Below are positions 1-47,426 of a stretch of DNA of 64,000 nt, one piece after another. The DNA is from Syntrophobotulus glycolicus DSM 8271 (GTDB taxonomy: Bacteria; Bacillota; Desulfitobacteriia; Desulfitobacteriales; Syntrophobotulaceae). Positions within the stretch are counted from its first letter, which is position 1, and each line of letters begins with the position of its first letter. A model generated the notes under the pieces. The model ran no database searches, was not told the origin of the DNA, and saw only the letters and a list, made by a program, of their open reading frames with translations. The position numbers and the translations under genes were made by a program. The DNA lies in the NCBI RefSeq assembly GCF_000190635.1, contig NC_015172.1, positions 1,178,001 through 1,242,000 on the forward strand. The letters are read 5' to 3'.

Positions 1-1
1 A

Positions 2-1225: not shown

Positions 1226-1294
1226 TGGGCAATGCAGGAAGGTTGTAAAAGGACCGCACCAATACATAAAATAAGGCCCGACCAGGGAGGTTGA

Positions 1295-1399
1295 ATGAAA
1301 CGTTAAATTCTGGCAGATGAAAAGGCCGGGGATGCAAAAGAAAGAGCCGGAGGCATTTTATTAGGATTGCAGCGCCTAGAAGAGCTTAAAAGGCTGTAA
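1295..1399 (+). pseudogene. Small ORF interrupted by TAA at codon 4
   Basis: An ATG 4 nt after GGAGG is followed by AAA CGT and then a TAA. The same frame then stays open for 30 further codons (ILADEKAGDAKERAGG...LKRL) to a second TAA. The good ribosome binding site suggests a small gene that was once whole, or a minimal ORF used in a leader. No function recognised. Confidence 0.25.
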
Positions 1400-1429
1400 C
1401 CGAATGATTGGTTGATTGTCTCCAACCGC

Positions 1430-1450
1430 GCCCGTCAGATGCTGACGGGC
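1430..1450. terminator. Hairpin between convergent genes
   Basis: Perfect 9 bp stem (GCCCGTCAG / CTGACGGGC) with a 3-nt loop, between the + strand GGDEF gene and the - strand ferredoxin-nitroreductase gene. There is no clear T tract, so a terminator role is inferred from position only. Confidence 0.4.
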
Positions 1451-1496
1451 CATGTTCGTTTCCTGGCGCAGAAAAGCCCTGCTGCTTGCTTCCACA

Positions 1497-2327
1497 TTAT
1501 TGCCATGAAACCTGCAAGGGTTCCCTGTCCACTAATCGTTTAAAAGTATAGGCCAGATATCCAACGAGCAACGCACCTGTGACGCTTTTGTTCTCGGGAA
1601 GCTGGAGAAGTTGCAGCAGAGGTTCATATCCCGCTGCAGCGCAATATTCGAATAACCCTGACCAGCAAGTGCCGAGCCCAAGCGCCGGTGCATAGAGCTG
1701 GGCATAGGCAAGCGCAAAATGAGTGTTGTCCCGGCCGAGAGCGAAACGCTCTTTCTGTGCCGTGGCGATGATCACACAGGGCGCATCCCTTAAAATCGTA
1801 TCCTTACCATTTTCACGATATCCGCGTATGGTATTGACGGTGTTTTTCGACCATGGGGATTTCCCCAAAGCACCGTGTCTTAAATCATCCTCTGCCCAAT
1901 CCGCAACCGCAGCTGCGATTGCTTTTAAGGTCGCAGGGTCATCCACAACAAGATAGGATACTCCTTGTGAATTGCAGGCTGTTGGTGCGAAACGGGCAAT
2001 ATCAAGAAGTTCGCAGATGGTTTCGCGCGGCACACGCTTCTTTTGGAAAGAGCGGACAGACCGCCGTGACCGGAGAAAGCGGACTGCCGTATTGGCGTCC
2101 GGCATGGATGCTTTTTCAATCAAGACCTGTTTTTCAAGCGGGGCCAGTCTGTGATCCAATGCTCCGTTTGGGCAAACCGCTACGCAATGCCCGCAGGCAA
2201 TGCAGAAATCATCGACGACCTCGGGGCCATGCCCGCCCATGCCAAGCGTACCTCGACAGACCTTTACGCAAAGCCCGCATTTTATGCATTGCTCCTGATT
2301 TACCTGAATCAAATTCTCTGCGGCCAT
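1497..2327 (-). CDS. Ferredoxin-nitroreductase fusion (FMN oxidoreductase)
   Basis: Cytoplasmic FMN-dependent oxidoreductase with its own electron-transfer domain. Residues ~10-60 hold two 4Fe-4S motifs of CxxCxxCxxxC type (CIKCGLCVKVC and CIACGHCVAVC). The nitroreductase fold follows, with the RRSVRSF flavin-binding start and the WSGLFEY region. Fusions of this kind are common in anaerobic Clostridia; the substrate cannot be read from sequence. The ATG at 2327 is chosen because GGAG sits 7 nt upstream; a GTG two codons earlier overlaps the stop of the preceding gene. Last gene of an operon with the NTF2-like gene and the SDR remnant. Confidence 0.9.
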   Translation of the reverse strand: MAAENLIQVNQEQCIKCGLCVKVCRGTLGMGGHGPEVVDDFCIACGHCVAVCPNGALDHRLAPLEKQVLIEKASMPDANTAVRFLRSRRSVRSFQKKRVPRETICELLDIARFAPTACNSQGVSYLVVDDPATLKAIAAAVADWAEDDLRHGALGKSPWSKNTVNTIRGYRENGKDTILRDAPCVIIATAQKERFALGRDNTHFALAYAQLYAPALGLGTCWSGLFEYCAAAGYEPLLQLLQLPENKSVTGALLVGYLAYTFKRLVDREPLQVSWQ

Positions 2328-2329
2328 GG

Positions 2330-3272
<943 letters not shown>

Positions 3273-3307
3273 TTAGGTCGTTTGCATGTTCCAATCATAT
3301 CAGCCAT

Positions 3308-3331
3308 AACCTGACAACATCACGTCAAGTT
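3308..3331. promoter_or_regulatory. Palindrome resembling the WYL-regulator operator
   Basis: Arms AACCTGAC and GTCAAGTT (7 of 8 paired) around an 8 bp spacer, overlapping the last codons of the WYL gene and lying just upstream of the SDR/NTF2/nitroreductase operon. The geometry (8 bp arms, 8 bp spacer, TGAC/GTCA core) matches the palindromes upstream of both WYL regulators in this window. Confidence 0.5.
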
Positions 3332-4239
3332 CTATTTTTATATTTGTTCACCATGTCATTTAATTCGTCCCGGAGCGCGTCGCGTATTTTCTGAGGGGAT
3401 AACACCTCTACATCAGCGCCGAACGAGAGGAGATAGCTGATCAGCCATTTGCTGTCCGGCAAAGAGGCGGTGACGGTTAAGGAGCCATCCTTGTTTTGCG
3501 TAATATCCTTTTCATCAAATTCACCGTATACCCGATATGCGCCTTGGGCGGAAGTCTTCAGACACAAATCAATCCAGTTCTGGGCTTTTGGCGTCTGCCC
3601 GCTTTCCTGCAATTCGTCCGAATTTTTTTTCGCGAATGTCTGGGGCGTCATTCGCAAATTCGACATCCGCGAAATTTTAAAGGTAAGATTGGTGTTTTTA
3701 GTCAAACAGAACGCTTGCAGGTACCAGGCGTTTACTTTGAAAACGAGTTTTACCGGTTCCACTTTCCGGGTGCTTTTTTCACCAGATGAATTAAAATAAT
3801 GAAATTCAATGATTCGGCGACTTAAGATGGCATCTTTCAAAACAGTAAATTGCCCTATGCTGCTTTCGTCACTGCCCCAGGGACTAAAATCCACCTCAAT
3901 CCAACTTGTTTTGTTCTTATGAAACAGACTGCTCAGTTTAGCAAGCACTTGATCCGTCTGGGGAGCTTTCGTGACTGACAGGCTTTGCAGGGCATATAGA
4001 ATTTCGTTTTGTTCTCTTTCTGAAAGGATAGATTTATCGAGCACATAATCATCCAGCAACGAGATTCCGCCGCCCTTGCCTTGGCTTGCATAAATCGGTA
4101 TCCCTGCCGAAGACAGAGTTTCGATGTCTCGATAAATGGTTCTTTCAGATACTTCAAAACGCTCCGCCAGTTTTTTGGCGGTTGTGGTCTTTTTATCAAG
4201 CAAAATATAGATCGTTTCAAACAGCCTGTTAATTTGCAT
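3325..4239 (-). CDS. YafY-type HTH/WYL-domain transcriptional regulator
   Basis: 304-residue cytoplasmic regulator. Residues 1-60 are an HTH of the HTH_11 type (AKKLAERFEVSERTIYRDIETL), followed by the conserved GGGISLLDDYVL linker and a WYL domain (~130-300) with EFHYFNSSGE and the W-Y-L region NAWYLQAFC. WYL domains bind nucleic acid or small ligands and tune the HTH. The gene precedes the SDR/NTF2/ferredoxin-nitroreductase operon on the same strand, its probable target. A perfect 12 bp inverted repeat lies 26 bp upstream of its start and a weaker copy overlaps its 3' end, suggesting autoregulation and control of the operon. Confidence 0.92.
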   Translation of the reverse strand: MQINRLFETIYILLDKKTTTAKKLAERFEVSERTIYRDIETLSSAGIPIYASQGKGGGISLLDDYVLDKSILSEREQNEILYALQSLSVTKAPQTDQVLAKLSSLFHKNKTSWIEVDFSPWGSDESSIGQFTVLKDAILSRRIIEFHYFNSSGEKSTRKVEPVKLVFKVNAWYLQAFCLTKNTNLTFKISRMSNLRMTPQTFAKKNSDELQESGQTPKAQNWIDLCLKTSAQGAYRVYGEFDEKDITQNKDGSLTVTASLPDSKWLISYLLSFGADVEVLSPQKIRDALRDELNDMVNKYKNRT

Positions 4240-4265
4240 ATCATCACCCCGATTTCATTATAAAC

Positions 4266-4297
4266 GTATAACTTGACAATAGTATGTCAAGTTATAC
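4266..4297. promoter_or_regulatory. Perfect inverted repeat, probable WYL-regulator operator
   Basis: Arms GTATAACTTGAC and GTCAAGTTATAC (12 bp, perfect) separated by AATAGTAT, directly upstream of the WYL gene. The core TTGACAATAGTATGTCAA differs at two positions from the core upstream of the second WYL regulator (49119-49136). Confidence 0.7.
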
Positions 4298-4849
4298 ATC
4301 AATGAACCAAATATGTGGTTTCATTGCTCAAACTTCGGCTGTCGCTGCGCAGAAAACCCAGAAACGACTCCTTCTGACGCTGTATCTGCTCGGCTTCCTG
4401 CATCAGGCGCTATGCGGGAACGCAATTAGACTCTGCTTTATTCAACGATTTGCTCATTTTTGCAACTTTTGCGGTATGTTTTCCGGCCAGACAGAGTCTT
4501 TTAAAAGAAAAGAGACGTAAAATTGTGTATTTTACCTGCATATATATCGCAAAAGTTGAAATTTTGAGCAGTTTATTGGGATGTATTGACAAAACGGCCA
4601 TGAAAGCTTAGAAGATTAATATCCATAAGAAGGCGGACATTAAACTACCGGGAATCCTGGATGCTGCCTGAACGATTCTCAACTATAAGTTCGTTTAATG
4701 TATGCATTCATTCGGTCCAGTCAGGTGACAAGGTGCATTTTTTTATGGTTGAAATCAAAAGAATGAAAAATAATTGTATCAATTAGTACATTAAATATTG
4801 ACGATCAGCATATAATAGCTTAAGATAGTGTTCGACAGGGAGGAATCCG
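4298..4849. other. Gene-poor stretch before the toxin-antitoxin operon
   Basis: No convincing gene. On the - strand around 4310-4475 a broken frame (MSKSLNKAE.., then after a TAG RLMQEAEQIQRQKESFL..) reads like the decayed start of a small coiled-coil protein, family not recognised. The stretch from 4560 to 4840 is AT-rich and holds the probable promoter of the toxin-antitoxin operon. Confidence 0.4.
4798..4826 (+). promoter_or_regulatory. Probable promoter of the toxin-antitoxin operon
   Basis: TTGACG and TAAGAT separated by 17 bp, ending 23 bp before the toxin ATG. A stray TATAAT lies between them (4811-4816) without a matching -35. Confidence 0.4.
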
Positions 4850-5260
4850 ATGAGCGAGCACTATAATACGAGCTATTCGAAAGAGGAAATAGCGGCGATT
4901 TTACAAAAAATACAGGATTGCGTGCGAGCGGGGAAATATACAATCGCACAAAATGAGAAACGGGCACAAAACCAAGCCCTGATACGGGAGTATAACCTGC
5001 GGACGGAAAGACAGAGGCATATCCTTCTGCAGATAGAGCCGGAGGATTTTTGCCATTCTTTGCAAAACACGAACATCGGGTTTGAACATGAAGTGTTGTA
5101 TGTGTTCTGTCCCCAGGTCATTCTGTTTAACTTCCACGGGGAGGAGAAACAGGTGGACATCTATACGAAGTTCAATATCATTGATCTGGACTCGGGGAGC
5201 CTCATAGTCGTTATTTCGTTCCATGAGCGAAACAAGCCGATGGATTATCTTTTCAGGTAA
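4850..5260 (+). CDS. MqsR-like type II toxin
   Basis: 136-residue protein with the layout of MqsR-family mRNA interferases: a charged helical N-terminus (SKEEIAAILQKIQDCVRAGKYTI) and a C-terminal beta region with NIIDLDSGSLIVVISFHERNKPMDYLF. It is longer than E. coli MqsR (98 residues), so assignment rests on the pattern and on its partner, whose N-terminus resembles MqsA. Predicted to cleave mRNA in the ribosome A site or in free form when unbound (family knowledge, not visible here). Toxin first, antitoxin 32 bp downstream, as in mqsRA. AGGGAGG lies 5-8 nt before the ATG. Confidence 0.72.
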   Translation: MSEHYNTSYSKEEIAAILQKIQDCVRAGKYTIAQNEKRAQNQALIREYNLRTERQRHILLQIEPEDFCHSLQNTNIGFEHEVLYVFCPQVILFNFHGEEKQVDIYTKFNIIDLDSGSLIVVISFHERNKPMDYLFR

Positions 5261-5292
5261 GCGATCGGAACCATTGAAAAGGAGGAATTGCG

Positions 5293-6291
5293 ATGAGTAA
5301 GCAGATTGTCTTTTGCCCAGAGTGCAGACAGGACGCAAAGTATTCTGTCAAAGAAAAAACGGAATCTGCTGAACTGAAGGGCGAAGTCTATGAGTTCACA
5401 GCGCAAACGGCCTACTGTGAGCAGTGCGGGGAGGAAGTCTATGTTGCGGAGCTGGAGGACGCCAATTTAAAGGCGCTGTATGATGTGTACCGTCAGAAGA
5501 ACGAAATCATCTCTCTGGAGGATATTCAGGCCATTCCTGAGAAATACAACATCGGGAAAAGACCGTTGTCCCTTTTGCTGGGATGGGGGGAGCAGACCTT
5601 CAGCCGTTATTATGACGGTGATATGCCCACAAAGCAGTATTCCGAGATACTAAAGCAGATCTATGCGGATCCTGCTTATTATCTTTCCCTGCTTGAGAAA
5701 AGTAAGGAAAACTTAAAAAGCGAAAAGGCCTATGAGAAAAGCAAGGCCTCAACGCAAAGGCTCCTTGATATTCCGGTGGTGGAGCCGCAGGCAAAAATGG
5801 ATGTGGTTGTAGATTATCTCTTATCCCGGTGTCAGGATATTACACCGTTGTCCCTGCAAAAGGCACTGTATTATGCCCAGGGGTTTTTCTATGCCTTCTA
5901 CAGGACTTACCTGTTTACAGAGGATTGCGAAGCCTGGGTGCATGGCCCCGCGTATCCGAAAATTTACCGTCGCTACAGCAACTATTGCTTCGATCCGATC
6001 GAGGGTGTGGATGAAGTGGAGGCTTCGGCCTTGTCGGGAGAGGATCAATTGCTTTTGGACAGCATCGTCAAACACGTTTGCTGCTACAGCGGGAAGACTC
6101 TGGAGGCTTTCACTCATACTGAAACACCCTGGGTTTTGGCCCGGGCGGGGTTACCGGCGGAAGCTTTGTCGAATCGACCCGTAACGAAAGAGTCCATCGG
6201 TGAGTTCTTTACTTTGGTAAAGGAAAAGTACCGCATGCTTACGCCCGCAAATATCAAAGACTATACCAGGGATTTGTTTACCCAGATCTAA
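5293..6291 (+). CDS. Antitoxin fusing MqsA-like zinc ribbon, HTH and Panacea domain
   Basis: 332 residues in three parts. Residues 1-60 carry paired CxxC motifs (C8-C11 and C42-C45) as in the zinc-binding N-terminus of MqsA/YgiT. Residues ~70-125 form an MqsA-like HTH (LSLLLGWGEQTFSRYYDG), expected to bind the operon promoter. Residues ~165-330 are a Panacea/SocA-like domain (DITPLSLQKALYYAQGFFYA, AWVHGPAYPKIYRRY), a domain known to neutralise many unrelated toxins. AAGGAGG sits 7 nt upstream. It should bind and inhibit the toxin encoded just upstream; which part makes contact with the toxin is open. Confidence 0.88.
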   Translation: MSKQIVFCPECRQDAKYSVKEKTESAELKGEVYEFTAQTAYCEQCGEEVYVAELEDANLKALYDVYRQKNEIISLEDIQAIPEKYNIGKRPLSLLLGWGEQTFSRYYDGDMPTKQYSEILKQIYADPAYYLSLLEKSKENLKSEKAYEKSKASTQRLLDIPVVEPQAKMDVVVDYLLSRCQDITPLSLQKALYYAQGFFYAFYRTYLFTEDCEAWVHGPAYPKIYRRYSNYCFDPIEGVDEVEASALSGEDQLLLDSIVKHVCCYSGKTLEAFTHTETPWVLARAGLPAEALSNRPVTKESIGEFFTLVKEKYRMLTPANIKDYTRDLFTQI

Positions 6292-33014: not shown

Positions 33015-34016
33015 ATGCAAAGCAATATTTTTTCAGCTGACGCACAGGAGCTCAGAGACAAAAATATCTCCGTTGCGGCTTGTACTGATTGGAGCCTTTC
33101 CATGAAATTACGACAGGAACAGGGAGCCGGTTTCATGCAACTGTTCCAGCTTTTGCCGGAACTGATCCTTTGCTTTAATGACTTCCAGACAAAGTCCTGT
33201 CCTAAATTTGGTCTTGAAGCAAATCACAGCAACAGAGTGCTGATCAATTATTGTTTTACCGGAAGATGTGAAGTGGAACTGGAAAACGGGATGTTTATTT
33301 TTCTGGGACCGCAGGATTTGGTGATCAGCACTCGCTGGACGAAAAGGGAGTTTTCCTTCCCTGTCCGTGCATACACAGGGATTGAATTCATTATTGATTT
33401 GGATCAGATCAATGAAGCGTCAAAAATATTCTGGGGGCAGATCGGGTTTGACTTGCGGGAATTGAAGGATATGTTCTGCAGGGATACCGGCTATTTTATT
33501 GGACATGATCACGGGCGGCTGGAACAACTGCTTCGTTCGATGAAAAGGGATCTGCCTCGTCCCGAAAGACCGCTGCTCTTGATAAAGACGGCGGAATTTT
33601 TATTTGAATTATCTAAGGGTCATTTTACCCCGGAGAATGGTCAGAGAAAGTATTATTCAAAATCACAGGTGCGGATTGCCCGGGAGGTCGAAGATGAGAT
33701 CACCGGCCAGCTGAACCGGCATCTGACAACGGAGAAGCTGGCGAGGAAATACGGAATCAGCCCTACCTCCCTGCAAAACTATTTTAAAGGGATTTATGGA
33801 GAACCGATTTCCGTATACCTGCGAAAAGCAAGAATGAATACAGCCGCAAAACTTCTGAAACATTCCAGAAAAAAGGTATCCGAAATTGCATCCTGCGTAG
33901 GTTATGAAAATCAGAGCAAGTTTGCGGCAGCGTTTAAAGAAGTCTTGTTATGCAACCCTTTGGAATATCGACAGAGAAATTTTGGGGGAGATGATTCTCG
34001 TGAAGAAGCTGAATGA
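33015..34016 (+). CDS. AraC-family regulator leading the feo operon
   Basis: 333 residues. The first ~200 form an AraC-type sensing domain (LENGMFIFLGPQDLVIS). Residues ~225-320 hold the two HTH motifs (LTTEKLARKYGISPTSLQNYFKGIYGEPISVYLRKARMNTAAKLLKHS and VSEIASCVGYENQSKFAAAFKE). It resembles siderophore-sensing activators such as YbtA and PchR. ATG with GGAGAGG upstream. Its end overlaps feoA by 17 bp, so it is co-translated with the iron uptake genes. It may also act on the distant YbtPQ-like ABC pair (inference). Confidence 0.92.
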   Translation: MQSNIFSADAQELRDKNISVAACTDWSLSMKLRQEQGAGFMQLFQLLPELILCFNDFQTKSCPKFGLEANHSNRVLINYCFTGRCEVELENGMFIFLGPQDLVISTRWTKREFSFPVRAYTGIEFIIDLDQINEASKIFWGQIGFDLRELKDMFCRDTGYFIGHDHGRLEQLLRSMKRDLPRPERPLLLIKTAEFLFELSKGHFTPENGQRKYYSKSQVRIAREVEDEITGQLNRHLTTEKLARKYGISPTSLQNYFKGIYGEPISVYLRKARMNTAAKLLKHSRKKVSEIASCVGYENQSKFAAAFKEVLLCNPLEYRQRNFGGDDSREEAE

Positions 34017-34224
34017 ACTGCAGGCGGGAAACGTTGGCAAGGTTCAGTCCATCGGCGGAGATGTTCATTTTCAAAGCCGTATCACATCCATTGGACTAAC
34101 CCCGGGGAGCATAGTGGAGATTGTACAGAATAAGAGAAAACGGCCGCTATTGATTTACAGCCGTGATAGCTTGATTGCGATTAACCGAAAAGATGCGGAG
34201 CTTATCGAAATGAAGGGGAATTGA
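34000..34224 (+). CDS. feoA: FeoA, ferrous iron transport SH3-like protein
   Basis: 74 residues with the FeoA fold: LNELQAGNVGKVQSIGG, ITSIGLTPGSIVEIVQNKRKRPLLI and a C-terminal beta strand. FeoA is a small cytoplasmic partner of the FeoB permease. The GTG at 34000 is chosen because GGGGGAG lies 9 nt upstream; an ATG three codons earlier is directly against that site. The gene overlaps the end of araC and is followed 1 bp later by feoB. Confidence 0.92.
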   Translation: MKKLNELQAGNVGKVQSIGGDVHFQSRITSIGLTPGSIVEIVQNKRKRPLLIYSRDSLIAINRKDAELIEMKGN

Positions 34225-37282: not shown

Positions 37283-37844
37283 CCCTAAGTAAAGCAAAAC
37301 AGAGCATAGCATCAGAAATTCAAAGTTCCGCCTCTCTTGGTAGCTTGACCGGATCTCGGCCTATCCTCCCCAGGCTCTTTCACAGAAAAAGGCATCGCTT
37401 CCCCTTCCCCACGGTGTGATAGGGACATTTTTGAAACCGTGGTGAAGTGGGGTGGTATGGTTCGGCAGGCAGTGAGGTTTCGCTGCCTGCCGACTACCGT
37501 GTTATGCGAATTCTGACGGGGCACTCGGCGCTTCGAGTATTTATCCCGCTCAAAGGGCTACTGCACGGAATTATTTTTTGAATTCATAAAAAACTTCTTA
37601 CGACTAATCCGGTTTCATAAATGAGTCTACAAAAACAAAATGCAGAAGTGCTGCCCATTTTTTCACGGACGGCACTTTTGCCTGATTCGGAGCATAAAAA
37701 ATGGCCGGGATTCTTTTTATCGAATCATGCCCAATTCCCGGAGCAGAGAAGCACAGTCTTTCGCTCCCTGCCCTGGATCTGCTTGTAATCTTCTGTAATC
37801 GGAAGTATAATTGACTTATGGATTCTGTAGAAGCAGGTGTGTGA
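37283..37844. other. Structured intergenic region without a clear gene
   Basis: Several strong hairpins: CCACGGT / ACCGTGG (about 37409-37442), TCGGCAGGCAG / CTGCCTGCCGA (37462-37472 and 37483-37493, perfect 11 bp), and CCGGGATT / AATTCCCGG around 37703-37742. A - strand 70-codon frame (37312-37524, ending EDRPRSGQATKRGGTLNF) covers the first two but has no clear ribosome binding site. Candidate non-coding RNA or mobile-element remnant. Confidence 0.5.
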
Positions 37845-38027
37845 ATGGAATATATCACAGTGAACGAAGCCGCAGAAAAATGGGGTGTTTCCGGACGGTC
37901 CATCACCTATCATTTGGTTGCCGGACGTATACCCGGCGCTTTGAAAAAGGGAAACATGTGGCTAATTCCCAGGAACGCTTCCAAGCCTGATGACAGAAGG
38001 AAACGGCGGAATAAGGAAGGAGAATAG
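37845..38027 (+). CDS. Small excisionase/MerR-like HTH protein
   Basis: 60 residues: EYITVNEAAEKWGVSGRSITYHLVAGRIPGALKKGNMWLIP is an HTH_17/excisionase-type domain and little else. ATG with AGGTG upstream. It lies 4 bp before the tandem PAS-AraC gene on the same strand, so it is probably co-expressed with it. Such free HTH proteins often act as local regulators or recombination directionality factors; no integrase is nearby. Confidence 0.8.
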   Translation: MEYITVNEAAEKWGVSGRSITYHLVAGRIPGALKKGNMWLIPRNASKPDDRRKRRNKEGE

Positions 38028-38031
38028 GTTC

Positions 38032-39624
38032 ATGAGCGATCATGATTGTTGCAGCGAACAAGCAACTCTTCCTTTTAGTGCGCCTTTGGAACAGTGGAAG
38101 TCCCTGTTCTCCGTTCTTGAGCTTTTCCCGATTCCGCTGGAGGTATTTTCGGCAGATGGTATCAGCCGATTCGTCAACCAGGCTTTTGTGGATACCCTAC
38201 ATATTAACGCGGAGCAGCTTGTCGGAAAGTTCAATGTTCTGGAAGACCCCTATCTCAATGGAATACTTGGTCTGGAGAAGGACCTGCGTCAGGTTTTTGC
38301 CGGTAAAGCTTTCTCCTTCCGTGACCTTAAAGCCCCTTTCGAGGAAATCGGCAGACGGTACCATTCCTTAAAAGCCAGACCGGTGGCCGACAACCTGTAT
38401 CAGGAGGTCATCTGCTTTCCGCTGCGGAGTCCGGATGAATCCGTCTCCGGCGTGATCGCCATGTTTATGACAAAACAGGTTTGTCAGGCGCGTCTGGACG
38501 CCATCCGGGTCAGGGAATATATCAAAGTCCATTGGCTTGATGATTTTGATTTGGATCAGATTTCAAAAGCGGTGGGCATGAGTCAAGACCATATGGCACG
38601 GGTTTTTAAAAAATGGATTGGCATGACGCCCTACACCTATTACCAGGAGCTTAAAATCGAAAAAATTAAAGAGGCGCTGCGCAATCAGCACTTGAGTGTT
38701 GCCAGGGCGTTTGCTTCCTGCGGTGCGGATTACAGCGGCGGCCTTGCCGAAGCCTTCAAGCACAAGGTTGGGATGACGCCGACCCAATACAGGCGGATGC
38801 TGCAAGGTTTCGACTCCGCTGGTTCGCAGAATCCGGGAACACGACCCGGCGAGCGCCATGAACAAAAGGAGCCTCTTTTCGCTCCCCGTTTCACCAGCGA
38901 AAAGATAGAGCTGCTTTATCAGGTGCTGGAATACTTCCCCCTGCCCATCAAAGTGTTTGCCCCTGACGGATATGTGGCGTTCGCCAACCATGTTATTTTG
39001 GAGATGTGGAATATTTCCGACCCCTCGCAGATCGTAGGGAGATACAACCTGCTCCGGGACTCTGTTACCAATGACCGCCTGGGGCTGCGGGACTATGTTC
39101 AGCGCACCTTCCGGGGGGAAATCGTGCTCGTTCCCGATGTGAAGGTGCCTCTGGAGGACTTTGCCGTATGGTACAAGGCCCGAGACCTTGGCTATGATAT
39201 AGAATCGATGTACACAGACATCCTCAGCTTCCCCGTCCAAAACAACAACGGCCAGATTACGCATATCATAAGCGTATTCCTGACGACCCGCGTTTATCAG
39301 GGTCAGACGGATATTGCGAGGGCGAAAGAATACATGGAGAATCACTGGAAGGAGCCCTTTGATATCGACAGGCTGACGGAGGCCATTGCTGTCAGTCCCT
39401 CACACTTATCCCGCCTGTTCAAAAAGCATACCGGCATCGCGCCATACAACTATTATCAGGAGCTCAAGGTAAACCACCTCAAAGCGGCACTCCGCGACTG
39501 CAACTTGAGCATTGCCGAAGCGTTTGTGTCCTGCGGTTTTGAATACCCCGGAAACTGCGCCAGGTTTTTTAAGGAAAAGACAGGTATGACTCCGTCCCAA
39601 TACCGAAAGAGTGTCGAAAAATAA
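38032..39624 (+). CDS. Regulator made of two PAS-AraC units in tandem
   Basis: 530 residues that repeat themselves. Unit one: PAS-like domain (~20-155, LFSVLELFPIPLEVFSADGISRFVNQAFVD) and AraC HTH (~160-262, AREYI-type helix, FDLDQISKAVGMSQDHMARVFKKWIGMTPYTYYQELKI, GMTPTQYRRML). Unit two: PAS-like (~297-430, LLYQVLEYFPLPIKVFAPDGYVAFANHVIL) and AraC HTH (~435-530, FDIDRLTEAIAVSPSHLSRLFKKHTGIAPYNYYQELKV, GMTPSQYRKS). A usual member has one of each. Four half-HTH pairs in one chain imply binding to two operator modules as a monomer. ATG at 38032 has GGAG 9 nt upstream. Lies before a PAS-like protein, lipoprotein and giant adhesin that it may control. Confidence 0.9.
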   Translation: MSDHDCCSEQATLPFSAPLEQWKSLFSVLELFPIPLEVFSADGISRFVNQAFVDTLHINAEQLVGKFNVLEDPYLNGILGLEKDLRQVFAGKAFSFRDLKAPFEEIGRRYHSLKARPVADNLYQEVICFPLRSPDESVSGVIAMFMTKQVCQARLDAIRVREYIKVHWLDDFDLDQISKAVGMSQDHMARVFKKWIGMTPYTYYQELKIEKIKEALRNQHLSVARAFASCGADYSGGLAEAFKHKVGMTPTQYRRMLQGFDSAGSQNPGTRPGERHEQKEPLFAPRFTSEKIELLYQVLEYFPLPIKVFAPDGYVAFANHVILEMWNISDPSQIVGRYNLLRDSVTNDRLGLRDYVQRTFRGEIVLVPDVKVPLEDFAVWYKARDLGYDIESMYTDILSFPVQNNNGQITHIISVFLTTRVYQGQTDIARAKEYMENHWKEPFDIDRLTEAIAVSPSHLSRLFKKHTGIAPYNYYQELKVNHLKAALRDCNLSIAEAFVSCGFEYPGNCARFFKEKTGMTPSQYRKSVEK

Positions 39625-39638
39625 GAGAAGATGCAGGT

Positions 39639-39669
39639 CCCCGCAGTCCTTTGGATTGCGGGGATTTTT
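39639..39669 (+). terminator. Terminator after the tandem PAS-AraC gene
   Basis: CCCCGCA / TTGCGGGG stem, 10-nt loop, then ATTTTTG. Confidence 0.75.
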
Positions 39670-39759
39670 GCGTGCGTTGAAATGACGAAAACAGAGCGCC
39701 TATCCGATATTTTTGCCGCTTCATTTTTTTTACCATAAGGATGGTAAAACTCTTTAAGA

Positions 39760-40263
39760 TTGGGGGCGGCACCACTGAAACAGGAGAAATCAAAGGAGCA
39801 GCTTTTTTCCGAACTCGCCGTGCTGCAAAAGGATATGGAAAAAAACCTTGCCGTACAGGAGCAGTTTATCAAACGGTTTCAGGGGCTTCTTCAGGCCGAG
39901 GCAGAGCCTTTGACCCTGCTGAATCTTTTGCCTTACCCTGCGGCCCTTTTCAAAAGAGGCGGCATTTTACACAGGGTAAACGACGCCCTCATGGAGAGCA
40001 CCGATCTCCGGGAGGGCGACATACCGGATGGAAACATCAACTTTTTAAGCCGCGTCACGAATGAAAACTTCGCTATACTGGAAGCCGCCGAAGGGGTGTT
40101 CTACGGAAAGACGGCGCTGCTCAGCCGGCTTTCCCATCCCCTGGAGCTGTTCTGCAAAAACTGGAATTACAGGGCGCGGAACAATTATGGAAGCGCACTC
40201 TTTTTCCCTATCCCGGACGGGGACGGGAATATCCGGTATGGCGCGGTTATGTTGATGAAATGA
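39760..40263 (+). CDS. PAS-like protein, start uncertain
   Basis: Up to 167 residues. After a coiled-coil start (KSKEQLFSELAVLQKDMEKNLAVQEQF) comes a PAS-like region (LLNLLPYPAALFKRGGILHRVNDALMESTDL.. to ..PDGDGNIRYGAVMLMK) that resembles the sensing part of the tandem PAS-AraC protein, without any DNA-binding or catalytic domain. The TTG at 39760 has no ribosome binding site; a CTG at 39775 has GGGGGCGG at 8-9 nt and would give MKQEKSKEQL, a more natural start. It may modulate the upstream regulator by PAS-PAS contact (inference). Confidence 0.65.
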   Translation: MGAAPLKQEKSKEQLFSELAVLQKDMEKNLAVQEQFIKRFQGLLQAEAEPLTLLNLLPYPAALFKRGGILHRVNDALMESTDLREGDIPDGNINFLSRVTNENFAILEAAEGVFYGKTALLSRLSHPLELFCKNWNYRARNNYGSALFFPIPDGDGNIRYGAVMLMK

Positions 40264-40367: not shown

Positions 40368-40829
40368 TTGGTTCTGTTGATTGGAGCCTACACAGCGCTG
40401 GTCGTCTTTGGCGACACCATCTGGCTTGCGGGGAATTTCAGCGTCGCGGACGATGTGCTGACCCTGACCGGCCGGACTGCCGAGGAAAGCAAGGACGGCG
40501 GCAAGACCTGGGGGACGCCGGAAGCCCTGCCCGATGCCTCGGACTATTTTGTCCTTGGAACCGAAGATACGGGGACCTATCTGCTCCTTGGCGAGGAGGG
40601 AGCGGCGCCGCCCCTTGAGGACAAGAAAAACGCGATCAAATACAGGCCGCAGAATGAACAGAAAACATGGAAAGGAGTATGCCATGAGAAAACCAATGCT
40701 TTACCTTTGCTGCTTTGTATTTATCCTGTCCATCCTGACCGGCTGCGCAGGCAAGGATGCGGGTTCGGGTGGGGACACCACACCTGTTTCCAACACCGTC
40801 ACCCTTGCCGATATGCGCAAAGCGGCTGA
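40368..40829 (+). CDS. Hypothetical protein, probably decayed at both ends
   Basis: Not recognised. The frame is open upstream to a TAG near 40275 (..CAQTTAPGFDSEKQKEEGLVLL) without a normal start, though a TTG at 40368 has GGAGG 5 nt upstream. The middle (GDTIWLAGNFSVADDVLTLTGRTAEESKDGGKTWGTPEALPDASDYFVLG) looks like real protein. The frame then runs 146 bp into the lipoprotein gene in another frame, which is unlikely for an intact gene. The CAQTT start of the open part recalls a lipobox, suggesting an old lipoprotein that lost its signal sequence. Confidence 0.4.
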   Translation: MVLLIGAYTALVVFGDTIWLAGNFSVADDVLTLTGRTAEESKDGGKTWGTPEALPDASDYFVLGTEDTGTYLLLGEEGAAPPLEDKKNAIKYRPQNEQKTWKGVCHEKTNALPLLLCIYPVHPDRLRRQGCGFGWGHHTCFQHRHPCRYAQSG

Positions 40830-41121
40830 GGATTCCGGTTATACCGTTACCGACGACTATGTAAACTTTTTTATGAAGGATGTGAAGGACGGCTTTTCCG
40901 TGCAGATCATAGCCGACGGGCAGGATGTTATTTATTCGGTGTTGGAATGCGAAACCGAAGAAGCGGCGGAAAAGAACGCGAAGGAGATTGACGACGCGGG
41001 CTACAGCATCGCTATCGTGAACGGCAGGTATCTGACCAGCTACGGCGCGGACAACAAAGACGGAGAAGTCAAAAACATTCTTGCCGCTCTCCTGAACGGA
41101 GAGTCTGCTAAGAGCAAATGA
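40684..41121 (+). CDS. Putative lipoprotein upstream of the SLH adhesin
   Basis: 145 residues. Signal peptide MRKPMLYLCCFVFILSILTGC with lipobox LTGC, so the mature protein is probably lipid-anchored at the outer face of the membrane. The mature part (~115 residues) has a ferredoxin-like alternation of strands and helices (TLADMRKAAEDSGYTVTDDYVNFF, VIYSVLECETEEAAEKNAKEI) but no known family. ATG at 40684 has AAAGGAG 6 nt upstream. It lies 32 bp before the giant adhesin gene and is probably in one operon with it. Confidence 0.8.
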   Translation: MRKPMLYLCCFVFILSILTGCAGKDAGSGGDTTPVSNTVTLADMRKAAEDSGYTVTDDYVNFFMKDVKDGFSVQIIADGQDVIYSVLECETEEAAEKNAKEIDDAGYSIAIVNGRYLTSYGADNKDGEVKNILAALLNGESAKSK

Positions 41122-41153: not shown

Positions 41154-44100
41154 ATGAGAAATAAAGCAGCCCAAAAAGCGCTTTCTCTTATTCTGGCTCT
41201 ATGCCTGACGCTTACTCTGGCGCCTCTCGGCGCAAGCGCGCAGGAAATACTCCTCGGCACCAGCGGGGGAACCGTGGATTCGGGCAGTATTCCCATATCG
41301 GATGAAACGCCGGCATCCTCCACCGATCTTGCCGAAATCCTGCCGCAAGGCGGGATGATGCCGCTGTCCATTAATCTCGACCACCACTATGTCGTCGGCG
41401 GAAACAGCTACGCCACGTTGGAGGAGGCGCTGACTGCTGTATCAAGCGGTGGAACCATTGTCCTGCAAAAAGACGCAAACCCAAGTGTGGCCAATACAAT
41501 TACAATTGAAAAAAACATCACCTTTGATTTGACAGATGGGAATTTATCCATCTGGAAAAGCGGCGGCCTTACTCTGGAGCTGAAAAACTGTATCGTCAGC
41601 GTCACGGGAGGCGGATATCTGGATGTTACGGGCGGGGTTGGTATAGAGGCCAATAACGCTGCTATAACCGTGCGTAATGTCACAGGGAATCAGGGCAACG
41701 GCGCATTGGCCCACAGCGGAGGCAGCATTACCGTGCTGGGCGATGCTCAGGGATATAGCGGCGCTGCCCGTGCCTATGGCGCAGGCAGCATCATCATGGT
41801 CAACGGCAATGCCCTAACCACCGGGCCCAGCAGCACCGTGGTGGAAGCGACATACGGCGGCTATGTCGAAGTGGGCGGCGATGTAACGACAAGCGGAGAC
41901 AACAGCACCGGCATCAGCGCCAAAAACAGCGGCACGGTCTATATCAAAGGTAGTGTCAGCGCCATGAAAAACGGCGTCTCCGTTTACGACAATTCTGCTT
42001 CTCAGGCGACCGTAGACGGTAACGTGACGGCCAGCGGAGCCAACGCCTACGGCGTTAGCGCGAGCGGCGGCAGTATCGAGGTGGGTGGCGATGTGAAGGC
42101 GGAGGCAGCCGGCAGCTCCGGCATTTATGCCAATGCAGGTCCGATAACGGTGGCAGGGAACGTGAGTGCGGGCGCCATAGGCGTTCATGCCATCAATGCG
42201 GCTGAAGTGACAATCGGAGGAACGCTGACGGTTTCTGGCTCCGTCTATATCCAGTTCGAGAGTACAGAAGCAGGCAGCGGACAATACACAACCGATCCCG
42301 CCAAATCCGGCTACCGCAAATACACAGACGGCACAAGCATAGTGTGGGTGAAGGCAACTACAGTGCCAGCGTATGTCTGCGAAATCGGTTCTACCGGCTA
42401 CCCCGCGCTGGCGGAAGCCCTTGCCGCCGTGAAAAACAACGAAACTATCACCCTTTTGCAGGATATCGACCATGTCACCGACACAGCGGCAAACGTCGTC
42501 CGCATCAACGGTAAGACGGTCATCTTCGATTTGGCGGGACACACTCTGAATGTGGGCGACGCCAGTGTCAGCAGCGCGGTTGTTGTGGAGAACGGCGGCA
42601 AGCTGGAGCTGTCCGGAAGCACCGGAGCGCTCAACGTCACCGCTTACGGCAACGCGGTGGAGGTGGAAGGAATCGGCTCGGCCGCCACCGTCACCAGTGC
42701 CACCAGTGTCAATAACATCGCTGTACTGGCGACGGGCGGCGGGCAGATTACCGTGCGGGGCGATGCTGTGGGTAACATCCATGGGGTCGGCGCAGGCGCT
42801 CCCACCGATACGGTGGGAAGCACCGTATCGGTGGGCGGCAATGTCAAAACCACCGTCAATGACCGAACGGTAATATCGGCAGGCAAAGGCTCTCATGTGA
42901 CGGTGAATGGCAGCGTGCTCACCACCGGTACGGGCGGCTACGGCGTAGGCGCTTTGCACCCCAATACCGAAGTCCACATCAAGGGAAATGTGATGGGTTC
43001 CTTTTTCTTCTGCGTGGATGCAAGCGATTCCGCTTTGGTCCGTGTGGATGGCAACGTCACCTCAACCTATGCCTCGTCCTACGTCTGCGGCGTGCGGGCC
43101 CAGACCAAGGCCGAGGTGATCGTGGGCGGAAATGTCAGTGTCAATAACCAAACCGGCAGTACCGGCGTGCGTGTAAAGAGCCTGTCCAGCCAAACGCCCA
43201 CCAAGGTCACGGTGGATGGCGTCATCAGCGGAGGAATCTATATCCAGCTGGACGGTACGGATATAACCGAAGCTCAGAAAACGGGCACAGAGGCGGGCTA
43301 TAACACCTACACGCTGACCAATACCAACGGCACCCATACCGTCTGGATAAAGGCCACAAGCGCCCCAACACAGCTCGAAACACCCACCAATCTTGCCTGG
43401 GACACCGCAACGCCGGGCGTCATCAAGGCGAAATGGGATCAGGTGACGAGCGCGCAAGAATATACGATAATGCTTTTTAAAAATGGCTCCCCGGTGGGAC
43501 CCATAGGGACCAGCGCGACCAGTGCGAATCTTACCGCATATATCCAAGCAAGCGGCACAGGAAGCTACACCTTTAGGGTAAGGGCGCTGGCCCCCATTGG
43601 GAGCGCTGACTATACAGACAGCGCGACTTCGCCCCAAGGCCCCGCTTATTCCTACACCGCGCCCGCGGCGGTCCCCGCCCAGGGCAACGCGTGGGCAACC
43701 CTTTTTACAAAAAGTATTTTTGTGAGGCTGAGTCAGGGCGGGTTCAAAGCCGTGCAGGACAAAGCTTACTGGACCCTTGGAGGAAACGGAGCATCCGGAA
43801 ACTCCATTGTCGGCGTCACTTTGATTGACAGCACGGAAGTACAGATTACGCTGACGAACGATATCAACACCCCCGATGCGCTGACCATAACGGCATCTGA
43901 GGCGGCCTTTGCCGACGGAACCTCTCCCTTCTCTTCGCCGCTTTCTGTGCGGCTTGACAATCCGCAGACCTATGTCTGCACCATCGACGGGGTGGCATAC
44001 TCAAGCCTGAAAAGCGCGCTTGATTTCGCGCTTGCGCCCACGGTGGACAACAAAACCATCGTGCTGGCGGCTGACATCCGGTACGAGGAGCCGGTTGTGG

Positions 44101-47100
44101 TCGAAGAGAAAACCCTCACCTTTTATCTAAACGGGAAGAATCTGGTCATCGACACCAGCGGAACAGTCACAGGCGATTGGCTCACCGCCTCCTCCCTCAA
44201 GGTGGATAACGGCAGCGTAAGCTATACGGGTGAGGGCAGGTTCACCGTCTGCGGCGAAAGGCGCGGCGTTGAAGCGATAAACGGCGGCAGGGCGCGGGTG
44301 AGCGATATCCTCATCAAAAATCCGGGTCAGCCCCACCCTGGTCATTATTATGTGTACGGTGCCCATGCCCGGTATCAAAACAGCGAGGGAGAAGGCAGCC
44401 AAATCACCGTCACCGGCGACATCCGAACGCTGAGCGGCAATCCCTGTGACTACGCCATCGGAGCGCTTGCGGGGCAGGATTCGACGGTTACGGTGGGCGG
44501 CGATATTCACCTTGAAGGGGAAAACGTAATCGGCCTGTCGGCCGGAAGCATGAACGACGGAAACGGAACGGCCACCGCGCAGAATGTTACGGTCACGGGA
44601 GCCTATGCCACCGGCGTCAGCGCCGCCGGGCAAAGCACCGCCACGGTTAACGGCGCTGTGACTGCGGCAGGTGCGTATGCCGTGGGTGTTTCCGCAGAGC
44701 TTGCGGAGAATGGCTCGGGCGGCACAGTGATTGTAAAAGGCGATGCCGCCGCAACCGGAGCAAACAGCACCGGCGTTGCCTGCTTTAGCAGCGCATCAGC
44801 GACGGAGAAAAGCACGGTGACCGTGGATGGGGTCGTTTCCGGCCAGGATTACCTGAATATCGACAATGCTGTGCGGGCAAAGGACGCCAAGGAAAACGTA
44901 TCCGGGGGATATTGGATTTACAACGGACAATATGAAAGCATAGTCAAGGTGAAGGACCCGGATGGCGGCACACCTGGCGGAAACGTTCCGTCTGCACCGC
45001 AAACCCTTACCGCAACCCCCGGCAATGGTCGGGTTACCTTAAGCTGGACAGCTCCCGCAAGCAGCGGCGACAGCGCGGTCACCGGCTACCAGGTATCCAG
45101 CGACGGCGGGGCAAGCTGGATCAATGTGGGACTGACCACCTCCTACATGTTTATTAACCTGACAAACGGAACGGAGTATGCCTTCAAGGTGCGGGCGGTA
45201 AGCAGCGCCGGCAGCGGAGCGGAAGCAAGCCGGATGGCAACGCCGACAGCCGCCCCCTCTGTGCCAACCGTCCCAAGAAACTTCACCGCCTCGCCCGGTT
45301 TCGCGCGGGTGATCCTCAACTGGGATGCGACCATGAGCAACGGCGGCAGCAGCATCATCCGATATGAGGTGTCCAAAGACAACGGCGCGGACTGGACGAG
45401 TGCCGGGCTGTATACCTCCTACGAATTTACTGGCCTGACAAACGGAACGGAATACACCTTCAAGGTGCGGGCGGTCAACAGCGCCGGCAATGGCGCGGAG
45501 GCAAGTGCGTCGGCCATGCCGTCGGATTCCGCCCAGACCAGTTTCACCGTAAACTTTTACAGCAACGGTGCGCTGTACACAAGCAGAAGCGTGCTCAACG
45601 GCTCCGCGCTTGGCGGCAGCTGGCCGGCAAATCCAGCGCGTAGCGGCTATACGTTCGGCGGCTGGTTCGCTGGCCAAAGCGGCTCGGGAACGAGGTACAC
45701 AAGCTCCAGCGTTATCTCTTCCAACGTGGATTTGTACGCCAACTGGAGCTACAGCGGCGGAGGCGGAAACGGTCATGGCGGCGGTGGTTCCTACACGCCA
45801 GGCACCCCGACAACAACACCCGAAAAGAAACCTGACCAACCTGTTACGGCGTCTGCTCCCGTCACGGCAACAGCGGGTACAGGCGGCGCAGCCAGCGCCG
45901 TAATTTCGGATAAAACCATTACTGACGCTATCGCCAAAGCGCAGGCCGACGCCAAAGCGCAGGGCAAAACCGCAAACGGAACCTCTGTTGCGCTGAATGT
46001 CACCATGCCGCAGGGAGCAACTTCCCTGACAACAACCCTGACACAAAGCTCTCTGAATAGTCTTGTGAACGCTGGAGTAACCAGCCTTGAGATAAACGGT
46101 GCGCCGGTTTCCCTCGGACTTGATCTCGCTGCACTCAAGGAAATCCAGAAGCAGAGCGGAGGCAATGTTACGATCAGCTTCACCCCGGCGACCGGGCTTT
46201 CCGACGAAGCCAGGGCTCTTATTGGAAACAGGCCGGTATATAACATTACGATCAGCTATGTCAAGGACGGCAAGACCGTGAACATCACCAACCTTGGCAG
46301 CGGCACAGCGACCCTTTCCATCCCCTACACGCCGGCGAGCGGAGAAGCCGTGGGTTATCTGTTCGGCACATATGTGGACGCAAACGGCAAACCGGTCCGC
46401 ATCGACGGTTCGGCTTATGACGCAAACGCAGGAGGAATCCTAATCCCCACCAATCATTTCTCGGTGTACGGCGTAGGCTATACGGCGCCGAGTGCGAAGT
46501 TCACGGATATCGGGAAGCATTGGGCCAAGGAAGCCATTGATTATGCGGTCGGCAGAGGACTTCTCTCCGGCACCTCGGAGACTACCTTTGCACCTGACAC
46601 CGCCATGACGCGCGGGATGCTGGTAACGGCTCTCGGCGGACTGGCAAATGTGGATACCAAAGCATACACCATCAACAGCTTCACCGATGTGAAAGCAGAC
46701 AGCGCCTTCCGCCCCTACATTGAGTGGGCGTATAAAAAAGGCATCATTCAGGGCATTGGCAGCCAGCAGTTTGCGCCTGACCGGGCGATTACCCGTGAGG
46801 AAATCGCTGTGATCTTCGCAAACTATGCAAAAGCCACCGGCTATAAGCTCCCTATTACCCGTGAGGCGACAACTTATGCGGACGCTTCCAGCATCGGCAG
46901 CGTGTACAAAACGGCAGTAACCGCCATACAGCAGGCGGGCATCATGATGGGCGGCACAGGCAACAGGTTTAATCCCAAGTCCAGCGCCACCCGCGCGGAG
47001 TTTTCCTCCATGCTCCACCGCTACATCAAGCTGACCATCGACCCCGCCACGGCCCAGGGCTGGGCGAAAAACGACGCCGGACAGTATCTCTATTACAGGG

Positions 47101-47426
47101 ACGGCAAAGCGGTTACTGGAACACAAACCATCGACGGCGTGAAGTATTTCTTTGAAACAAACGGAACGCTCAAGACCGGCTGGGTGCAGGATGGCGGCAA
47201 CTGGTACTTCTATTCCGGCAACATCCGGATCACCGGCTGGTGGGACATCGGCGCGAACGGCAACAACAAACGCTATTACTTCGACACTTACGGCATCATG
47301 GTTGCCGGCAAGTGGCTCCAGATCGACGGCAAATGGTATTACTTCTATGCCGACGCCTCCCTTGCCAAAAGCACCAAAGTGGACGGCTATGAGATAGGGC
47401 CGGACGGTGCGAGAAAACCAAAGTAA
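41154..47426 (+). CDS. Giant SLH-domain surface protein (2090 residues)
   Basis: Secreted adhesin-like protein. Signal peptide at 1-30 (ends LAPLGASAQ). Three long beta-helix-like modules rich in G, S, T, V and N begin near 78, 405 and 939, each with a Y-x3-G-x-x-Y-x-x-L-x-x-A-L opening. FN3-like domains near 740-832, 1279-1365 and 1370-1455. An InlB B-repeat (VNFYSNG..GYTFGGWF..LYANW) near 1463-1532. A linker follows, then three SLH domains (~1781-1960: FTDIGKHWAKEAIDYAVGRG, FTDVKADSAFRPYIEWAYKKG, and a third) that bind cell-wall polymer, and finally aromatic cell-wall/choline-binding type repeats (YFFETNGTLKTGW, WYFYSGNIRITGW). Having both SLH and such repeats is unusual. GGAGG 7 nt before the ATG. 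Confidence 0.93.
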   Translation: MRNKAAQKALSLILALCLTLTLAPLGASAQEILLGTSGGTVDSGSIPISDETPASSTDLAEILPQGGMMPLSINLDHHYVVGGNSYATLEEALTAVSSGGTIVLQKDANPSVANTITIEKNITFDLTDGNLSIWKSGGLTLELKNCIVSVTGGGYLDVTGGVGIEANNAAITVRNVTGNQGNGALAHSGGSITVLGDAQGYSGAARAYGAGSIIMVNGNALTTGPSSTVVEATYGGYVEVGGDVTTSGDNSTGISAKNSGTVYIKGSVSAMKNGVSVYDNSASQATVDGNVTASGANAYGVSASGGSIEVGGDVKAEAAGSSGIYANAGPITVAGNVSAGAIGVHAINAAEVTIGGTLTVSGSVYIQFESTEAGSGQYTTDPAKSGYRKYTDGTSIVWVKATTVPAYVCEIGSTGYPALAEALAAVKNNETITLLQDIDHVTDTAANVVRINGKTVIFDLAGHTLNVGDASVSSAVVVENGGKLELSGSTGALNVTAYGNAVEVEGIGSAATVTSATSVNNIAVLATGGGQITVRGDAVGNIHGVGAGAPTDTVGSTVSVGGNVKTTVNDRTVISAGKGSHVTVNGSVLTTGTGGYGVGALHPNTEVHIKGNVMGSFFFCVDASDSALVRVDGNVTSTYASSYVCGVRAQTKAEVIVGGNVSVNNQTGSTGVRVKSLSSQTPTKVTVDGVISGGIYIQLDGTDITEAQKTGTEAGYNTYTLTNTNGTHTVWIKATSAPTQLETPTNLAWDTATPGVIKAKWDQVTSAQEYTIMLFKNGSPVGPIGTSATSANLTAYIQASGTGSYTFRVRALAPIGSADYTDSATSPQGPAYSYTAPAAVPAQGNAWATLFTKSIFVRLSQGGFKAVQDKAYWTLGGNGASGNSIVGVTLIDSTEVQITLTNDINTPDALTITASEAAFADGTSPFSSPLSVRLDNPQTYVCTIDGVAYSSLKSALDFALAPTVDNKTIVLAADIRYEEPVVVEEKTLTFYLNGKNLVIDTSGTVTGDWLTASSLKVDNGSVSYTGEGRFTVCGERRGVEAINGGRARVSDILIKNPGQPHPGHYYVYGAHARYQNSEGEGSQITVTGDIRTLSGNPCDYAIGALAGQDSTVTVGGDIHLEGENVIGLSAGSMNDGNGTATAQNVTVTGAYATGVSAAGQSTATVNGAVTAAGAYAVGVSAELAENGSGGTVIVKGDAAATGANSTGVACFSSASATEKSTVTVDGVVSGQDYLNIDNAVRAKDAKENVSGGYWIYNGQYESIVKVKDPDGGTPGGNVPSAPQTLTATPGNGRVTLSWTAPASSGDSAVTGYQVSSDGGASWINVGLTTSYMFINLTNGTEYAFKVRAVSSAGSGAEASRMATPTAAPSVPTVPRNFTASPGFARVILNWDATMSNGGSSIIRYEVSKDNGADWTSAGLYTSYEFTGLTNGTEYTFKVRAVNSAGNGAEASASAMPSDSAQTSFTVNFYSNGALYTSRSVLNGSALGGSWPANPARSGYTFGGWFAGQSGSGTRYTSSSVISSNVDLYANWSYSGGGGNGHGGGGSYTPGTPTTTPEKKPDQPVTASAPVTATAGTGGAASAVISDKTITDAIAKAQADAKAQGKTANGTSVALNVTMPQGATSLTTTLTQSSLNSLVNAGVTSLEINGAPVSLGLDLAALKEIQKQSGGNVTISFTPATGLSDEARALIGNRPVYNITISYVKDGKTVNITNLGSGTATLSIPYTPASGEAVGYLFGTYVDANGKPVRIDGSAYDANAGGILIPTNHFSVYGVGYTAPSAKFTDIGKHWAKEAIDYAVGRGLLSGTSETTFAPDTAMTRGMLVTALGGLANVDTKAYTINSFTDVKADSAFRPYIEWAYKKGIIQGIGSQQFAPDRAITREEIAVIFANYAKATGYKLPITREATTYADASSIGSVYKTAVTAIQQAGIMMGGTGNRFNPKSSATRAEFSSMLHRYIKLTIDPATAQGWAKNDAGQYLYYRDGKAVTGTQTIDGVKYFFETNGTLKTGWVQDGGNWYFYSGNIRITGWWDIGANGNNKRYYFDTYGIMVAGKWLQIDGKWYYFYADASLAKSTKVDGYEIGPDGARKPK

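Follow-up and report, generated by a model that had tools for sequence, protein, structure and literature searches.

Why should a bacterial transcription factor carry two complete sensor and DNA-binding units in one polypeptide, and what might such a protein regulate? The question is raised by a gene of Syntrophobotulus glycolicus DSM 8271, located in the stretch of 64,000 nt analysed here (NC_015172.1, positions 1,178,001-1,242,000, forward strand; hereafter the window). An earlier sequence-only reading assigned the order PAS-HTH-PAS-HTH, with similar yet diverged halves, to its product (P0001) at positions 38032-39624, coordinates that are kept here. The features of the gene and of the region preceding it are listed below, in window coordinates and with the evidence in brackets.

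37783..37811, + strand: sigma-70-like promoter TTGTAA-17-TATAAT, 34 nt before the HTH_17 ORF (consensus scan, 10/12 matches)
37845..38027, + strand: HTH_17 (excisionase-like) protein of 60 aa, a separate ORF (Pfam HTH_17)
38032..39624, + strand: two-unit regulator P0001, PAS-AraC-PAS-AraC, 530 aa (frame, Pfam, self-alignment, genome-wide HTH_18 count)
38107..38481, + strand: N-half PAS domain, residues 26-150 (Pfam PAS_4; dN<dS in three pairs)
38494..38805, + strand: N-half AraC DNA-binding domain, residues 155-258 (HTH_18, 69.8 bits; dN<dS)
38806..38889, + strand: linker, residues 259-286, poorly conserved (identity in three pairs)
38905..39279, + strand: C-half PAS domain, residues 292-416 (predicted fold; dN<dS)
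39295..39615, + strand: C-half AraC DNA-binding domain, residues 422-528 (HTH_18, 79.9 bits; fold; dN<dS)

P0001 is a single chain of two complete PAS-AraC units whose halves have diverged, in agreement with the earlier description. Its open frame spans 37990-39624, and the likely start is ATG 38032, which lies 4 nt past an upstream stop codon and is preceded by AAGGAAGGAG. The N and C halves share 96 identities over 252 columns (38%, E 1e-67), with an alignment score of 501 against a peak of 51 in 200 shuffles. Both HTH_18 matches, to the AraC-type double-HTH DNA-binding domain, are well above the cut-off of 33.6 bits; the genome has 11 such matches in 10 frames, and the regulator frame is the only one to hold two. 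PAS_4 was matched in the N half alone (27 bits, Pfam cut-off 23.1). In a predicted model of residues 290-530 (pLDDT 85.8), the PAS part resembles PAS/LOV chains (Z about 10-12) and the DNA-binding part resembles 3oio (Z 15.8), so that a PAS fold is assigned to the N half by Pfam and to the C half by prediction. The model of the full-length chain (A2, 3 rows; pLDDT 54, pTM 0.34) is uninformative on the packing of the halves. At the DNA level, the longest similarity between the halves extends over 106 bp at 73%, which argues against an assembly duplicate; a sequencing or assembly artefact is ruled out because the halves differ and seven intact two-unit proteins are found. Since single-unit homologues exist, the natural reading of the sequence is that P0001 represents a dimer made covalent.

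An alignment of 22 units (A1) was used to search other genomes, and matched 13 of 82 genomes of the class at E 1e-35 and 18 of the 398 genomes sampled from the phylum at E 1e-50. Intact two-unit chains are present in the window and at loci L130 (genome G006), L111 (G231), L112 (G435), L113 (G420), L114 (G087; a divergent chain) and L037 (from a Desulfitobacteriaceae MAG). At an eighth locus, L038, the contig begins inside a C-type half, and its chain may have one unit or two. In the sequence-only reading, a layout shared by many database proteins would have counted against the idea; this applies to a slight extent, with seven chains in all and five within the 398-genome sample (the window genome, G231, G420, G435 and G087), and the PAS-AraC-PAS-AraC layout recurs yet is rare. 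Single-unit relatives and unfused tandem-gene pairs occur alongside the fused form: adjacent intact single-unit genes are found at three loci (L138, L141 and L142/L115), L116 has two convergent units, and the second unit is incomplete at L117, L118 and L121. One apparent fusion, a 527-aa frame at G007:C11, was rejected and is treated as a gene pair, since an in-frame stop separates frames of 261 and 265 aa. Two stretches of viral contigs fitted a pattern and neither encodes a relative, and a plasmid search at E 1e-20 gave no relative of the regulator. In the literature searched, in which subscription journals are mostly not represented, no two-unit PAS-AraC regulator was found.

A maximum-likelihood tree of 49 units (midpoint-rooted for drawing only) bears on the origin of the two halves. 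The seven N halves group in a single clade (support 99/97) and the seven C halves in another, together with L038 (100/99), and the two clades are joined at 96/90; the window halves fall into the respective clades, and L114 branches long. This pattern points to one duplication-fusion that was kept asymmetric, and the simplest reading is that fusion took place once and that the chain has since kept two distinct halves for a long time. The tandem pairs at L138, L141 and L142/L115 show a similar partition: the second genes fall in a clade apart from the first genes, which group with each other (100/100 branch). All of them lie outside the fused halves, so that a second, unfused pair arose independently.

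Conservation extends to both units. For each of the four domains, dN is lower than dS in L130-L111, L037-L113 and window-L113, with two window comparisons in this test saturated at synonymous sites; identity in these three pairs is 50-91% within the domains and falls to 21-41% in the linker. Judged by these values, all four domains are under purifying selection in three pairs and the linker is much freer. The N and C groups are 40.6% identical over the unit, and differ at a helix-6 position that we take to be the equivalent of MarA Arg96: Arg is present in all eight C halves, whereas five of the seven N halves have Glu and two have Lys. Together with the conservation of the domains, this contrast suggests that the two halves probably read different DNA.

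The short HTH_17 protein encoded just upstream (29.4 bits, Pfam cut-off 27) is in a different frame from the regulator. An HTH_17 domain is fused to the regulator N terminus in the two-unit proteins L130 and L111 and in seven single-unit proteins (L120, L124, L125, L127, L132, L133 and L134). In the near-identical L119 and L128 it is encoded by a separate overlapping ORF, as is probably also the case for the second unit of L127, and none was found where it was looked for at L037, L112 and L113. The promoter-like sequence at 37783..37811 is weak on its own, being one of four sigma-70-like sites in the consensus scan against a shuffle mean of 3.0.

The region following the regulator gene contains a potential target, with these features:

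39639..39669, + strand: terminator-like hairpin, 7-bp stem CCCCGCA/TGCGGGG, 11-nt loop, then ATTTTT (read from the sequence; the loop exceeds the limit of the hairpin scan, whose listing does not include it)
39672..39740, + strand: conserved operator/promoter-like element, 69 bp (gap-free alignment, pair statistics, leave-one-out search)
39775..40263, + strand: PAS-only protein with a helical N-terminal segment (14 homologues beside regulators)
40368..40655, + strand: remnant of a lipoprotein C-terminal domain (72% and 77% identical to the L113 and L112 lipoproteins)
40684..41121, + strand: lipoprotein, 145 aa (signal and lipobox read from the translation)
41154..47426, + strand: giant surface protein, 2090 aa, with SLH, fn3 and choline-binding repeats (Pfam)

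The order regulator, PAS-only protein, lipoprotein, giant surface protein is common to the window, L112 and L113; at L037 the surface protein directly follows the PAS-only gene, and L114 is without the cassette. Pfam searches gave no match for the PAS-only protein or for the lipoprotein at 40684..41121. The PAS-only family (length about 165 aa; N terminus helical and conserved) comprises 14 sequences near units, including those of the window, L037, L112 and L113; that of L126 is a fragment, and just C-terminal remnants are present at L130 and L120. The window gene probably starts at CTG 39775, within a frame listed from TTG 39760. In the PAS-only genes of the window, L037, L112 and L113 the start codons align and are TTG or CTG throughout, and such a start may keep the protein at a low level. 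The lipoprotein remnant at 40368-40655 lies behind a good ribosome-binding site and its L113 and L112 counterparts are intact; in the window, decay seems to have affected the first of the cassette's lipoprotein genes. Three SLH repeats are present in the surface proteins of the window, L037, L113 and L115, a weak SLH match in that of L038 and CWB2 repeats in that of L138, and the L112 protein, its sequence ending at the fetched edge, has no Pfam match. The window genome has five SLH-bearing frames, including 41154..47426, and some relatives have many.

The association with secreted proteins extends across the wider family. Where 2.5 kb or more of sequence was available, 18 of 27 unit loci have a secreted protein of at least 350 aa no more than 2.7 kb downstream, against 3 of 20 control AraC loci (Fisher p 0.0009; L162, with 2.4 kb downstream, was excluded from the controls); for proteins of at least 500 aa the counts are 15 of 27 and 1 of 20 (p 0.0004). 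As the loci are not independent and the controls come from partly different genomes, these p values are a guide only. The crude signal-peptide rule behind the counts missed the proteins of 1453 and 1457 aa after L120 and L124, whose N termini are signal-peptide-like, and counted L123, possibly a membrane protein. Within 7 kb, 7 of the 20 control loci have a secreted protein.

Between the regulator and this cassette, positions 39672-39740 align gap-free across six loci (window, L037, L112, L113, L130 and L038), with 20 of 69 columns invariant. When the window element was compared with the other five, four pairs showed an identity that none of 200 shuffles reached, and for L130 it was reached by 8 of 200; L038 was cut one base off in the block column of this test, and its block identity is therefore understated. 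A sequence-only model built without the window (R2) found its best match in the 3.4-Mb genome at 39681-39738 (23.7 bits, E 1.6e-4; runner-up 14.3 bits). With the window included (R1), the genome has one strong site and the next scores just 16.9 bits, so that P0001 looks dedicated to one promoter in its own genome. In G420, R1 found one trans site, which precedes the gene of a 301-aa protein that lacks a signal peptide; L111 has only half an element. The block CCGATATT lies at 39704-39711, and a -10-like stretch at about 39729-39736, of which the window's own copy is a poor match. At L113 CCGATATT ends 17 bp before TATACA, a spacing at which it covers the -35 position.

The sequence-only reading had proposed a search for two-module operators upstream of the lipoprotein and adhesin genes. 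A conserved promoter-proximal element is indeed present, but the test for repeats was mostly negative: at the two-unit loci the 21-22 bp repeat score was reached by 140 of 2000 column permutations, with a shift of 10 outscoring 22, and by 438 of 2000 for six single-unit or pair loci and 4 of 2000 for two loci. A composition of two half-sites is thus suggestive only.

At single-unit and pair loci a separate element occupies the corresponding place after the regulator. A model from six of these loci (R3) recovered held-out sites at L138:10197-10252 (between the regulator and the PAS-only gene), at L131 and at L128, the last being a near copy of L119. Over six genomes R3 found four further strong trans sites (in G006, G007 and G014), three of which precede secreted or PAS-only/surface genes: an orphan PAS-only gene and a 1255-aa secreted protein at G007:C11, a secreted protein at G007:C36 and a lipoprotein at G014:C71. 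No large gene follows the fourth (G006:C84). R2 and R3 were run on each other's elements and neither found them, which suggests that the elements either diverged with their regulators or are unrelated. The G007:C11 stretch (L185, positions 1-6000) carries a second pair of PAS-only and 1255-aa surface protein genes behind a predicted element, with a transposase-like ORF upstream and no regulator in the 4.3 kb downstream. At G006:C84 (L189), an aromatic-rich short frame starting MFFGWFPFWGFPFFGGFFGW sits behind a good ribosome-binding site about 400 bp past the predicted site.

Building on the architecture, the single origin, the conservation of both halves, the element and the cassette, we propose, with somewhat better than even confidence, that P0001 is a dedicated, covalently dimeric activator of the downstream operon. 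One duplication and fusion of a PAS-AraC unit would have given a chain that brings together two units, for which single-unit relatives would need a dimer or the products of a tandem-gene pair. This chain would bind 39672-39740, a site that reaches over the -35 position of the operon promoter from the upstream side, with the N unit on one half-site and the C unit on a different one. In response to a signal sensed by the PAS domains, which might pair with each other, it would activate, rather than repress, the operon for the PAS-only protein, the lipoprotein and the giant SLH surface protein. The PAS-only and HTH_17 proteins might also take part in regulation. In a more specific and less likely form of this proposal, P0001 would be a fused obligate heterodimer whose units have diverged to different half-sites, such that an asymmetric operator fixes its orientation and target. 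The PAS-only protein would then pair with one PAS domain as a titratable antagonist or signal carrier, and the unfused gene pair of relatives would be a parallel solution.

Other readings have to be weighed against a covalent dimer acting at one promoter. That the chain integrates two ligands, as suggested by the sequence-only reading, and serves as a logic gate with a separate ligand for each PAS domain, is consistent with two PAS domains that differ (the N and C groups being 40.6% identical over the unit) and are each conserved. We consider it unlikely, as a structural role alone is possible for one PAS domain, and single-unit relatives with one PAS type occupy like cassettes. It is still more doubtful that two-unit chains dimerise in turn, bringing together four DNA-binding domains, for example for DNA looping or binding at more than one site: PAS domains do commonly dimerise, but R1 gives one strong site in the genome, with the next at 16.9 bits. 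A model in which the C half alone acts and the N half is an additional copy in decay could account for the Glu or Lys of N halves at the helix-6 position, where C halves invariably have Arg; purifying selection on the N half, and its standing as a conserved clade with its own signature, make this very improbable.

The element might also be a plain promoter or leader feature, and not the binding site of the regulator. Its position directly after the terminator, its weak symmetry and the share of its conservation that is due to the -10 and a T-run all fit such an origin. The conserved CCG(A/C)TAT and TGA-AG blocks, however, precede the -10 and do not resemble a -35, and related elements of different sequence follow the single-unit regulators, so that we regard this explanation as improbable.

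How does the proposed dedicated activator compare with known systems? P0001 shares the HTH_18 DNA-binding domain with the AraC/XylS family (two copies here; fold Z up to 15.8), and differs in having two sensor and DNA-binding units per chain, diverged and inherited together. The AraC/XylS sensor is a cupin-type arm, in place of which P0001 has PAS domains. Half-sites of the AraC family are direct repeats about 21 bp apart, and at the arabinose promoter AraC occupies araI1/I2, upstream of and overlapping the -35 position. The candidate site of P0001 resembles araI1/I2 in this position and in its length of about two half-sites; unlike araI1/I2, its direct-repeat symmetry is weakly supported (the 140 of 2000 permutations above), and each half-site would be recognised by a different unit within the same chain. 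Further counterparts are the single-unit PAS-AraC and HTH_17-PAS-AraC homologues of the same phylum, whose unit is 34-46% identical to those of P0001. They share the type of cassette, with PAS-only and secreted proteins, and differ in having one unit per chain or adjacent genes (L138, L141, L142) and an operator-like element of another sequence.

P0001 can be seen as a pair of transcription factors that occurs naturally as a single chain. Related bacteria have living examples of the single-unit, the tandem-gene and the fused form, with a candidate operator for each, which makes the co-divergence of duplicated regulators and half-sites, and the reason why the fusion stayed, testable. A local regulator, a PAS-only protein and a giant surface protein that travel as a cassette would also provide a way to control surface-protein display. 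Elsewhere in the window, at 33015-34224, another AraC-type regulator is followed by a FeoA-like frame of 106 aa and a FeoB-like protein of 677 aa.
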